A DNA stretch of 39,482 bases from Planctomycetota bacterium (GTDB lineage Bacteria; Planctomycetota; UBA1135), in assembly GCA_028821845.1 (NCBI GenBank), contig JAPKEZ010000002.1, positions 1-39,482 on the forward strand. Reading direction: 5' to 3'. Within the stretch, counting starts at the first letter, position 1. Every line of letters starts with the position of its first letter. The translations under genes and the position numbers were made by a program. Positions 10,794-15,076 of this stretch are shown here, piece after piece. The notes beneath the pieces were generated by a model. The model made no database searches. It saw nothing but the letters and a program-made list of their open reading frames with translations, and was not told the DNA's origin.

Positions 10794-11828
10794 ATGAAAA
10801 AAACACTTAGCATAATTTTAGCTTTAGCTGGCATAGCTGTTTTCAGCTCTCCGGCATTTGGCGCACCTCAATGATGAGGCGGCGGCGGCCCCCGTGGGGG
10901 TGCTGGTTACTCGGGTCCGGGTGACACATCAAATCCAGGCGGTGCAGGCCCTGCTTCGCCTTCTACACCTACTGGTGGCGGCGTTCCAGGCGCGCCTTCG
11001 ACACCAGGTGGTGGCGCAGGTCCAGCGACCCCAGCAGGCGGTGGCGCAGCAATGCCATTACCGCCGCACGGTCAAACGGCTAAAGATATCATGAAGCTAA
11101 AGTGGGATTTCCCTACTCATAATATCTACAAGCGCGAAGATACCAAAGGTGCCAACGCAACTATTGCAACAAAAATAGAAGCCGCTCTTCCAGAGCAAGA
11201 AGCTTATTTTACGATTGCAGGCGACGACCGTCGTCCGTTGCTAGTGCTTCGCGAGTGTTTGATATGTAACGGCACTGATGACGCATTACTTTCAAGTTAT
11301 GAAAACAATGAAGCCGTCTTGATAGTTACTCGTTGGTTCCATTGCGTTAAGTTGCCTACAGACATTCTTAGCGACGAGCATTCATTCCATACTTTGTTCG
11401 AGGGTGACCACCCACCGCACTTATTCGTGTCGCGCTGGGATGGCAGTAATCCAATTGAATTGCGCGGAGATTTGTCTCGTAGCGAATTGTTGGGCAACAT
11501 GTACGCAACCTTGAAGGCGGAATACAAAAAAGACGCAAAAAAGGCGGCTAAAGAAATAACTAAGCTCATGTATGTTTACGACATGCTTGATGAAAAGATT
11601 CAACGTCTTGAAATCACAATCGACGACGAGCTAGAAAGACGTGGCCCTAAGTCTAAAAAGCTTAAGAAGTACCGCAAGCAGCTCGAAGCCGCACAAAAAG
11701 AAATGGCAGCAGCGAAAGAAAAGGAAGCCGTGCTTTCTAACCTTCAGCTAAAGAACCCTGACGAAGCGCCAAACGCACTCGCAGAACTCCTAGAGTCGCG
11801 TAAAAACGGCCTGCCGGCTGGTCAGTAA
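10794..11828 (+). CDS. candidate di-selenocysteine secreted thioredoxin-like protein
   Basis: One reading frame runs from 10794 to the TAA at 11826-11828 but contains two adjacent TGA codons (10872-10877, codons 27 and 28). Before them is a textbook signal peptide (MKKTLSIILALAGIAVFSSP, then AFGA). After them, in the same frame, comes a Gly/Pro/Ala/Ser/Thr linker to about residue 90, a thioredoxin-like domain with Cys155-Leu-Ile-Cys158 (RECLICNG) and a later PHLFVSRWDGS strand, and a charged coiled coil (about 250-320). Cleavage would leave Pro-Gln-Sec-Sec-Gly-Gly near the mature N-terminus. A hairpin directly downstream could act as a SECIS. An in-frame ATG at 10782 is an alternative start. 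The competing reading is a secreted stub plus a separate 258-residue gene from 11052, but that would leave the linker unexplained and the domain without export. Confidence 0.6.
10883..10905 (+). promoter_or_regulatory. possible bacterial SECIS hairpin
   Basis: Five bases after the second TGA begins a stem: 10883-10886 with 10902-10905, a bulged G at 10887, then 10888-10892 with 10897-10901 (two G-U pairs in all), closing a CGTG loop (10893-10896). The loop starts 16 bases after the TGA and has G as its second base, within the range described for bacterial SECIS elements. It lies in GC-rich low-complexity DNA, so some pairing is expected by chance. Confidence 0.35.
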
Positions 11829-11833
11829 TTTAT

Positions 11834-11870
11834 TACAATTAGGGAGATGCATCGTCACTCCCTAATTGTA
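11834..11870 (+). promoter_or_regulatory. hairpin enclosing ribosome-binding site and start codon
   Basis: A perfect 13-bp inverted repeat (11834-11846 with 11858-11870) places the Shine-Dalgarno-like GGGAG in the 5' arm and the ATG at 11847 in the 11-base loop. No T-run follows, so it is not a standard terminator. It could make translation of the downstream gene conditional. Confidence 0.6.
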
Positions 11871-13088
11871 CGTTTCTCTCTTTTGTGCCTAGCGTTAGTC
11901 ACATGTACTACATTTGCTAGCGCACAAAAGAAGAAAGACGGCGACGATAAAGAAAAGAAATATAAAGAAGATCCATACACCGAGAATATCGAAGATGTAT
12001 GGCGCGTAGCTGGTTATGAAGCTATGGGTGATTTTGGCTGGGCCGACGGTCACGGTACAGTAAACATCGAAGATGCCATTGGCGAAGAAGAGTTAATCTT
12101 CATCGAAACTAAACACTTTAAAATTGGTTGCTGTTTGCCAAACTATAAAATTTCTCGCGAAGATAAAGTCGAAAAAAATAAAATAGAGGGTGAACTAGAT
12201 GAATTACGCAAAATAATTCCTAATATACCTAGACGCGTAAAGGTACTCGACAAATGGTTGCGACTGCACCTTTATGCCATGCGTATCGAAAAGCTATACA
12301 CTAGTATTCAGAGTATACTGCAAGTTAGCGACGATGATTTCCCGACTGGTCCTGGTCAATTAAAGAATGGTAAATACATGGGTGAAGGCCCCTACTTGGG
12401 GATGAAGTCTAAGTTCACTTTATTGCTGTTTGACAAAGAGAGTAGTGTCGGCCGTTACCGCACTGCATTCATGGGGGAAACGGGTGTTATCCCTATTCGC
12501 TTCTTGTTTCCGAACGAAGGCACTCTGCTGTATGCATGTGCTGCTCAAAACGAAGGTCTTGCTTCTGATACCACCATGCACTGCGCAATGGTGTATGCGG
12601 TTACTCAGAATCTTCTAAACGGTTATCGGCACTATGGCCAGGCGATGCCGACTTGGTTACCGCTGGGTGTTGCTCATTCGTTGGCCCGCGACATTGATCA
12701 GAAACGCAACTATTTCACCGATAAGCGGCTCTACGATTCGGAAGACAAGAACATATGGAAGTGGGACACTAAAACCCGCAAACGCGTCGATTACGATATC
12801 GCCATTCCGTATCAAGCGATGACAGCGTGGGGTTCGCCGACTTCCTTGTCTTATAACGACCACGTAATGGCGTGGGCGCGCGTAGATTTTCTGCTGAAGG
12901 AACATAAGGATTGGGTGGCTAAATGGCTGTACCGGATGCAGGACAGCTATGCTCCAACCCTAGTTCCGTCTGCTGAGCAACTTGTAGAGCGCGACAAAGA
13001 GACCGTGGCAGAGATATTTGTCTTTGAAGATGGTGACTTCGAGTCAGTTTGGCAGCAGTGGGTTAAAAAAAATTATAAAAGAAAATAG
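11847..13088 (+). CDS. secreted protein with Cys-Cys motif, degenerate peptidase-MA-like
   Basis: A 413-residue protein with signal peptide ending ASA-QKKK (residue 26) and a highly charged Lys/Asp/Glu segment after it. The phrase FIETKHFKIGCC (Cys95-Cys96) resembles the 'ETEHF' strand that opens peptidase-MA-like domains of planctomycete proteins. WLPLGVAHSLAR (around residue 270) sits where such proteins carry a 'WL.EG.A' helix. No HExxH zinc site is present: the expected region reads TMHCAMVYAV, so peptidase activity is unlikely. The gene follows the candidate selenoprotein gene by 18 bases and is probably in the same operon, with its start codon inside a hairpin. The adjacent Cys pair beside a Sec-Sec/CxxC protein suggests a redox partnership, which is inference. 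Confidence 0.7.
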   Translation: MHRHSLIVRFSLLCLALVTCTTFASAQKKKDGDDKEKKYKEDPYTENIEDVWRVAGYEAMGDFGWADGHGTVNIEDAIGEEELIFIETKHFKIGCCLPNYKISREDKVEKNKIEGELDELRKIIPNIPRRVKVLDKWLRLHLYAMRIEKLYTSIQSILQVSDDDFPTGPGQLKNGKYMGEGPYLGMKSKFTLLLFDKESSVGRYRTAFMGETGVIPIRFLFPNEGTLLYACAAQNEGLASDTTMHCAMVYAVTQNLLNGYRHYGQAMPTWLPLGVAHSLARDIDQKRNYFTDKRLYDSEDKNIWKWDTKTRKRVDYDIAIPYQAMTAWGSPTSLSYNDHVMAWARVDFLLKEHKDWVAKWLYRMQDSYAPTLVPSAEQLVERDKETVAEIFVFEDGDFESVWQQWVKKNYKRK

Positions 13089-13153
13089 CAATTTTATGCT
13101 TTAGTAAAGCGATTTAAAGCCGCAAATGTGTGCGAGGGAGACCTCGTAACGTC

Positions 13154-13525
13154 ATGCGACTTCAAAAACTTTTACTACTAGCACTGCTAATAACTGTACT
13201 TCCGGCCTGTGGGGCTGCTGGTGAAGATTCGCATAATAGTCCGCCAAATAGCGGCCCTGATGGAGATGCGAATGAGCCCATCTATCCACCAGACGTACTG
13301 TCTGGTCCTGCTACTTTTTATGTTGATCACAGTAGTGGAGCGAACGATGTTCCTCCAGGAGATGCTGCAAAGGGTTTTGCGAGTGCTCATACTTCTGAGG
13401 GACTCATGCGCGAACTGAATGACACAGGCACTGCTGGTGGGCTATTACGCCATGATCTGCGGGTCAATATTCCTCGCGGAGGTGTGCCAACCTCACTCTT
13501 GGAAGGCGAGAGAATAGGGCTCTAA
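13154..13525 (+). pseudogene. N-terminal part of broken GH39-like lipoprotein
   Basis: This 123-residue piece starts with a lipoprotein signal (MRLQKLLLLALLITVLPACG, lipobox LPAC) and a Ser/Pro/Gly-rich tether. It continues with the beginning of a glycoside-hydrolase-like barrel (RHDLRVNIPRGGV) and then stops at TAA (13523-13525). The frame stays open after the stop and continues directly into the 13541-15076 piece, so both are one gene interrupted by a single nonsense codon. The stretch between RGGV and MGTP is also shorter than I would expect, so a deletion may accompany the stop. A GTG at 13130 extends the frame but would spoil the signal peptide. A short hairpin (13133-13137 with 13142-13146) holds the GAGGGAG ribosome-binding-like sequence. 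Confidence 0.6.
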
Positions 13526-13540
13526 ACCTGGATAACCGCG

Positions 13541-15076
13541 ATGGGAACTCCTCTCGATCAATCTCCTTCTACGGAGGGCGAGGAATACAACTCTGGCCTA
13601 GCGCCCTACGCACGCTGGACCCCGATGAGCGCTGATATCTGGGCAGATACGGTTGTCACTATGCTCGAGAATTACGAATCGCGTAACGGGTTCGTGCCTA
13701 ACTTTGTAGAAATATGGAATGAGCCAGATCGTCGTGAATTTTACAACGGAGACATCGCGGACTACTTGGAAGTCTACACAGCTACTTCTCAAAAAATTAA
13801 ATTCCGCTGGCCGGAGATACAAGTGGGCGGAATGGGACTGGCCGGGTACAGGTCAGAAATGGGCGGAACTCAATCGGCAATCTTGTCGTTAATAGATCAT
13901 GCCGCTGCCAATAATCTACCTTTAGATTTCGTGTCTTGGCACCATTACACCATTGCCAATGGCCTGCAGTACTCAGGATTTTTAGAAGAGGTACGACAAC
14001 GCTTGAGCAGCTACAACATGTCGGAGGTTAAATTAATAATTTCTGAATGGAATATTTATCCATCGCCGAATGCCGAGTTCGATCGTGGACATAATGCTGC
14101 TAACTACGCAGGGTTTCAAACTACAGCTCGCGAATTAGGGCTGGACGGAAACATTATGTTCGTACTACAAGATATAACGCGAGGTAATGCTAGCATTGGT
14201 GACTTTACTGGAAACGGCATGGGCTCGATAACTGAACACGGCATCAAAAAGCCAGCCTTTCATGTTATTGAAGCGATCCAAGCAATGTCGAGTGAACCTA
14301 TGCTTACAACAATCCGCCCGGAGAATGAACTCAGCGTAAATGTTTATGCAACGAAGATGGGCAACCGCGTACGGTACGTTGTTAGCAATGATTCCGTCCC
14401 AGGCGAATGGGTATGGGCGAATAGATTACGCGACGCCGGCCTGGCCCCTGGTTACTTGTGGACGCTTTACTCTAACGCATCAGAGAATAATGGGAATTCA
14501 CACAGACCGACTAACGTCGAATTACTTGATGAGGGAATGGCAGAATTAGAAATTACTGCCATCCGCGAAATCGAAGACGAATTGAATATGTCATGGATTT
14601 TTAAAGGAAAAGATCGCCCAGTTGAGATTGTCTTTGGCGGAGACCAACTTCCAAGCATATCTAATGTTCGCCGTTTTGATAGCACTCACAACAACTTTGC
14701 TGATCGCGTCGAAGAAATAATGCCTTACCTTGTGCAGACTGAAGAAAACGCGAAATGGTATGCGCAGAATGAGGCGGCAGACTACCTTGGCACTTACGGA
14801 ATTATTGTTAGCCCTGAAGAACTCGCTCTTTACGATGACATACAGCAATGGGCTCTAGAAAATGATGTGCCGCAAGGCATCGTTAGCAGCGCGATAAGTG
14901 TTTACCAAAAATCATTTGCTGAAGGACGTTTATTTGATGTGGATTTATTGAATCACTTACCACAAATGAGTGTCAACTCAATGACGGCCAGAGAGGCTAA
15001 CGTGACGTCTGTCGCCGGTTCAGTGGCCTTTCAAATGGAACCGAATTCGGTTGTCATCTTTGATCTCTACCTTTAA
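13541..15076 (+). CDS. GH39-like glycoside hydrolase, catalytic part (same frame as upstream fragment)
   Basis: A 511-residue segment with the signatures of clan GH-A retaining glycosidases near family 39. FVEIWNEPD holds the acid/base Glu (residue 61 of this segment), and KLIISEWNIYP holds the nucleophile Glu (residue 169). Between them, FVSWHHYT matches the usual strand with His. A C-terminal beta domain follows and ends near SVVIFDLYL. Family members hydrolyse beta-xylosides or related glycans. Translation from the ATG at 13541 would lack the first barrel strands and the lipoprotein signal, so as written the product is probably inactive or not exported. The catalytic residues are intact, which suggests recent inactivation, a sequencing error, or unusual decoding. 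Confidence 0.65.
   Translation: MGTPLDQSPSTEGEEYNSGLAPYARWTPMSADIWADTVVTMLENYESRNGFVPNFVEIWNEPDRREFYNGDIADYLEVYTATSQKIKFRWPEIQVGGMGLAGYRSEMGGTQSAILSLIDHAAANNLPLDFVSWHHYTIANGLQYSGFLEEVRQRLSSYNMSEVKLIISEWNIYPSPNAEFDRGHNAANYAGFQTTARELGLDGNIMFVLQDITRGNASIGDFTGNGMGSITEHGIKKPAFHVIEAIQAMSSEPMLTTIRPENELSVNVYATKMGNRVRYVVSNDSVPGEWVWANRLRDAGLAPGYLWTLYSNASENNGNSHRPTNVELLDEGMAELEITAIREIEDELNMSWIFKGKDRPVEIVFGGDQLPSISNVRRFDSTHNNFADRVEEIMPYLVQTEENAKWYAQNEAADYLGTYGIIVSPEELALYDDIQQWALENDVPQGIVSSAISVYQKSFAEGRLFDVDLLNHLPQMSVNSMTAREANVTSVAGSVAFQMEPNSVVIFDLYL

Follow-up and report, generated by a model that had tools for sequence, protein, structure and literature searches.

Evidence for an undescribed selenoprotein family of Planctomycetota with selenocysteine, often as Sec-Sec, near the mature N-terminus of exported proteins

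The window, the whole stretch of 39,482 nucleotides of planctomycetotal DNA that we analysed (contig C108 of its genome), carries on its forward strand a gene with two consecutive in-frame TGA codons, and directly downstream of it a gene for a second secreted protein. The features discussed here are as follows:

10794..11828, + strand: secreted selenoprotein gene as inferred here, 344 codons read through plus a TAA stop; one frame with two in-frame TGA codons, the same layout being found in homologues
10794..10862, + strand: predicted signal peptide MKKTLSIILALAGIAVFSSPAFG, with a basic start, a hydrophobic core and A-F-G before APQUU; likewise in all homologues
10872..10877, + strand: UGA UGA, read as Sec27-Sec28, approximately residues 4-5 of the mature protein; Sec in 50/50 class homologues and Cys in paralogues
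10878..11051, + strand: Gly/Pro-rich linker, from the translation; similar linkers in homologues
10883..10905, + strand: proximal SECIS-type hairpin, loop CGU at 10893-10895, 18 nt after the first UGA (UGA1) and 15 nt after the second (UGA2)
10906..10925, + strand: distal hairpin, a possible second SECIS, loop GGUC at 10914-10917, at distances of 39 nt from UGA1 and 36 nt from UGA2
11052..11483 (approximate borders), + strand: thioredoxin-like domain with C155xxC158, from a match of the family profile to PDB 3fk8 (E=2.4e-5)
11484..11738, + strand: C-terminal helical hairpin (coiled coil); within the fragment folded, the AlphaFold2 model is confident for this part alone (residues 145-229)
11847..13088, + strand: secreted gluzincin-like protein in which no HExxH can be recognised, the directly downstream neighbour, assigned by fold search

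The gene runs in a single frame from the ATG at 10794 to the TAA at 11826-11828, and its sole interruption is the TGA pair at codons 27-28. Translation confirms the original prediction that an export signal, the two TGA codons, a Gly/Pro linker and a CxxC domain share one frame: the product reads MKKTLSIILALAGIAVFSSPAFG-APQ-U-U, followed by the linker, the domain with C155-L-I-C158 (Cys codons at 11256 and 11265) and a helical C-terminus. Signal peptides and the cleavage site were judged by eye, for the window gene and the homologues alike, and by this judgement the Sec pair does fall, as had been proposed, close to the mature N-terminus. No gene other than the window gene was found in its own genome with PQU[UC] behind a signal peptide. 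We rejected a lipoprotein for the window gene, since processing by signal peptidase II requires a small residue (G, A or S) immediately before the Cys, and position -1 is Gln here and in most of the class. Members with LPGUU or AGUC are formally nearer to a lipobox, and for those a lipoprotein is not excluded.

A search of whole genomes with the read-through protein detected homologues in 78 of the 101 relatives; across the class, 104 of 154 genomes yielded them, and most of the homologues carry one or two in-frame TGA codons. All genomes compared are assemblies, many of them from metagenomes, and the E-values of these searches are per genome. Sec follows straight after the signal peptide, at residue 24-31, in 50 of the 51 homologous frames read; the remaining frame is cut at a contig end. 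The 50 class homologues with a readable N-terminus comprise 33 Sec-Sec, 15 Sec-Cys, one Sec-Arg and one Sec-Gly site, and the flanks are kept as APQU[UC] or LPGUU. Divergent paralogues have Cys (AQC, PQC), CU or a single U at the same site, and a few have neither; on a quick tree, eight changes between Sec, Cys and neither are needed, an approximate figure given the long branches. The Sec reading had predicted UGA or Cys at codons 27-28 of homologues, and UGA-UGA, UGA-Cys and Cys are what occurs there. The layout is conserved far beyond chance, and in no homologue read are signal peptide and domain separate genes, an arrangement that would have refuted the prediction.

The genome itself (1.83 Mb in 196 contigs, 85% complete), whose closest named relatives are Planctomycetota metagenome-assembled genomes, was searched for the Sec machinery on which the prediction depends, and all four components are present, each above its curated cut-off. 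SelA (E=8e-75, in a gene that runs off the contig start) and SelD (L147, 303 bits) share contig C56, tRNA-Sec (SelC) lies on contig C72 with 74.7 bits, above the gathering score, and SelB lies on contig C157 with 293.9 bits. The SelD gene has one in-frame TGA of its own, in the N-terminal active-site loop (SAGUAAK), which fits UxxK, the Sec motif given for SelD (PMC13188914).

TGA is indeed a rare stop in the window, where the 36 genes end in TAA (27), TAG (6) or TGA (3), and it is the terminal stop of 20/50 homologues of the window gene; the code is thus not reassigned. A reading without Sec, with TGA TGA either as a real stop between a 26-residue leader and a separate gene starting at ATG 11052 or as codons for another amino acid, is hardly credible. 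The internal ATG exists, but its position is not Met in three homologues (L063, L064 and L065), TGA is a normal stop in the genome, the Sec machinery is complete, and both the exchange of TGA with Cys and the GU-loop hairpins described below fit Sec. Ordinary stops with separate genes and a general reassignment of TGA are rejected on the conservation of the Sec site, the three homologues without Met and the use of TGA as a stop. No experiment bears on the point, and from sequence comparison we regard the decoding of UGA-UGA as Sec as nearly certain.

The bacterial SECIS model asks for a stem of 4-16 bp capped by a small apical loop with a G near its start, at a distance of 16-37 nt from the UGA (PMC13188914). 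Folding supports the hairpin noticed just behind the second TGA, placing it at 10883-10905, and adds the distal hairpin, which has a perfect 8-bp stem. The folding energy of the window as a single sequence is unremarkable (z = -1.75) and is little proof alone, so that the case rests on comparison with homologues. A GU-loop hairpin at the right downstream spacing is present in 40/50 class genes, against 6.6 +/- 2.4 in a codon-shuffle null with a maximum of 17 in 200 shuffles; the same genes searched at other offsets yield 2-7. The loop G of the class hairpins lies 22, 25 or 28 nt past the first base of UGA1, with GU at 25 in 34/50. Among distant matches, the hairpin is found in 24/32 (null 3.0 +/- 1.5). 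The Sec position in these 32 rows was picked by a script, and L157, L178 and the empty row L172 look mis-picked, which lowers or barely alters the count. Distant stems differ by paired changes (CTCCGCCA-GTC-TGGCGGAG, CTCTGCCA-GTC-TGGCAGAG and CTCGGCCA-GTG-TGGCCGAG). Loop length varies, so that a stem count anchored on the loop could not tell register 0 from register +1, and we rely on the two hairpin counts instead. Searches against Rfam gave chance-level matches only. In position and GU loop, the hairpins of the family agree with this bacterial SECIS model (PMC13188914).

Measured against the 16-37 nt range, the proximal loop stands 1 nt too near UGA2. The proximal hairpin would suit UGA1 and the distal one UGA2, which we offer as a hypothesis only, as members of the family do not generally have the distal hairpin. 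It is kept in L012 and L016 of the same genus, whose proximal hairpin lacks the GU loop.

Profile searches of a phylum sample of 392 genomes, confined at this depth to Planctomycetota, reveal members in other families, and in 11/11 of those read, Sec stands right behind the signal peptide. The site motifs are HGQUCPP, RGQUCPS, GGUCGGG, AGUCGRS, GECUGRS, GGUUGRS, GGUUGGG and similar. With L132 as query, matches occur in 63/392 genomes, and most loci read have AGUC..GRS, AGUGGRC, GGCUGRS or AGUGUGRS at the site; in one match (L178) the Sec site is seemingly lost. The most distant group lacks CxxC entirely and still keeps Sec, indicating that the core of the family is the Sec site and not CxxC. 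An alignment of 16 members has no invariant columns beyond those of the start Met, the Sec/Cys pair and one each of Trp, Pro, Met and Tyr.

A further observation concerns L149-L178, from other Planctomycetota families. These lack CxxC, have U-C-x-GRS or U-GG(G)-RC at the site with a hairpin GCCA-GUN-UGGC, and occur in two to five copies in several genomes.

The description of the body as a CxxC thioredoxin-like domain stands as to the fold, through a profile match to the solved disulphide isomerase 3fk8 at profile positions 99-184, over the CxxC region; as to CxxC it does not hold throughout, since distant members have lost the motif. The likeness to 3fk8 is one of fold region and CxxC, and nothing in the match implies an N-terminal Sec arm, a linker or a coiled coil. 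The window protein has no match among Pfam or NCBIfam models, and no Pfam thioredoxin model scores above its cut-off, the only hit being PF13899 (E=0.063) in one distant member. The AlphaFold2 model has a mean pLDDT of 56 and is confident only in the coiled coil, its thioredoxin-like part being too weak to use. A body composed of a thioredoxin-like domain and a coiled coil is accordingly supported by sequence comparison, the structure model of the domain being poor.

In all 24 neighbourhoods of CxxC-type members that were checked (20/20 of the class and 4/4 of family f47), the gluzincin-like gene lies immediately 3' of the selenoprotein gene; near the CxxC-less group, no such partner was found. 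The structure model of the partner resembles gluzincin peptidases (Vibrio and Clostridium collagenases and aminopeptidase N; best E=0.013, probability close to certainty). The product of 11847-13088 has neither an HExxH zinc motif nor a Pfam match, and we take the modelled likeness as a resemblance of fold only. Homologues of the partner are widespread in the class, with extra copies unlinked to a selenoprotein gene, and are also found in genomes without a detected selenoprotein; the two proteins thus need not occur together in every genome.

Beyond the partner gene, a glycoside-hydrolase-39-like gene is split over two frames (13130-13525 and 13541-15076). Its counterpart in the same-genus neighbour L096 (9872-11812) is a single frame of 647 codons. 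The split in the window may reflect a frameshift, decay or an assembly error.

Our best explanation of the locus, which we hold with good confidence, is a genuine, undescribed selenoprotein of phylum-wide occurrence in Planctomycetota with an N-terminal redox arm. Most of this confidence belongs to the identity of the protein, as there are no data on protein or activity. Both consecutive UGAs would be read as Sec with the aid of a SECIS hairpin just 3' of them, a step strongly supported by the comparison though by no experiment. Removal of the export signal would then place the two Sec at roughly positions 4-5 of the mature chain, ahead of a Gly/Pro tether, the thioredoxin-like domain and the coiled coil. 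We infer that the Sec-Sec or Sec-Cys pair may act as a mobile arm that alternates between reduced and oxidised states, the latter a vicinal diselenide or selenenylsulphide, and that its targets could be peroxides or disulphides outside the cytoplasm, the substrate being unknown. Recharging the arm, or holding a client, would fall to the thioredoxin-like body, whether or not it has CxxC; where CxxC is missing, an outside reductant, none of which has been identified, might recharge it instead. The gluzincin-like protein encoded downstream is probably a partner or client.

That the pair is a redox arm at all is inferred without activity data, and we favour it only slightly. In most members a second Sec or Cys lies within 1-5 residues of the invariant Sec, in varying order and spacing (UU, UC, CU, UGU, UGGRC), as expected if a selenenylsulphide or diselenide is to form. 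Sec stands without a second Sec or Cys next to it in a few members (UR, UN, UGGG), and a single Cys is all that many Cys paralogues have; both fit an obligate pair poorly and count against a redox pair. The diselenide or metal site suggested in the original prediction likewise remains an inference. The wider proposal, that encoded Sec-Sec dipeptides form a mobile N-terminal diselenide arm within a phylum-wide extracytoplasmic redox system that includes the gluzincin-like partner, some genes possibly devoting a separate hairpin to each UGA, is tentative, and we stop just short of favouring it.

The arm has a parallel in a well-known enzyme. In animal thioredoxin reductase, the C-terminal Gly-Cys-Sec-Gly sits on a flexible end that serves as a moving redox arm. 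The Planctomycetota family likewise has an adjacent Cys/Sec pair between glycines (GUCG, GUUG), but its arm is N-terminal and belongs to an exported bacterial protein without a flavin domain. The likeness is an analogy of working, not kinship.

Instead of a redox arm, the same selenoprotein might carry its N-terminal Sec pair as a tail that binds metals or metalloids (e.g., Cu, Hg, Ag), which we consider unlikely. Adjacent soft ligands by a free N-terminus would bind soft metals, and a double selenoprotein described as metal-binding, MbdU, is already tabulated (PMC13188914). However, the second Sec/Cys varies in spacing and order, whereas fixed spacing would be commoner in a metal site, the body is thioredoxin-like, and no metal-resistance gene was recognised beside the selenoprotein gene, where neighbours are only partly identified. 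It is also improbable that the invariant N-terminal Sec/Cys is no catalyst and instead a point of covalent attachment or dimerisation, its chalcogen being bonded to a surface or to a partner protein. It is the first position that is conserved, Cys paralogues have one Cys at the mature N-terminus (AQCPP), and the long flexible linker, coiled coil and secreted partner would all suit an anchor; yet Sec is costly and unneeded for a structural disulphide, most members nevertheless keep it, and a vicinal Sec-Sec would be odd in that role.

We compared the family with known selenoproteins. The original prediction knew of no described family with this layout, and we find none either: a 2026 review lists 119 prokaryotic selenoprotein families and subfamilies in its Table 1, none with a UU motif or the layout of the window gene (PMC13188914), and no description of the family was found in open-access papers, preprints not included, an absence that does not prove it unpublished. 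Thioredoxin-fold selenoproteins in the same table share with the family Sec together with a thioredoxin-like fold (often as UxxC/CxxU), a bacterial SECIS and Cys homologues, but their listed motif, e.g. UxxC, is the active-site motif of the fold, whereas Sec in the window family is not part of the fold and instead occupies the mature N-terminus of a protein that is exported, often as Sec-Sec. MbdU (NF045648) is a metal-binding double selenoprotein with a CU motif (PMC13188914); it shares with the family two Sec and an adjacent Cys-Sec motif, but the window protein matches no NCBIfam model. GUxG, the motif of hypothetical protein DG (NF049953) described from Desulfosediminicola (PMC12013277), resembles GUCG/GUUG. 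Membership in DG was rejected, its model giving no match at E<=1 to the window protein or to any of the eight distant members tested.

The family is thus a large one, present in several Planctomycetota lineages and missing from the review list, and it places Sec where no listed family does, a few residues from the mature N-terminus of exported proteins. A gene caller that takes UGA as a stop would truncate these proteins to 26 residues or begin them late, making mis-annotation likely. Two questions become directly testable: how one or two SECIS hairpins enable bacteria to decode UGAs in succession, and what role a genetically encoded vicinal diselenide has outside the cytoplasm.

Tandem duplicates of the gene occur in L054, L082, L083, L084 and L098. 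In L084, one copy has AQUN and the adjacent copy AQC, a possible recent switch between Sec and Cys.
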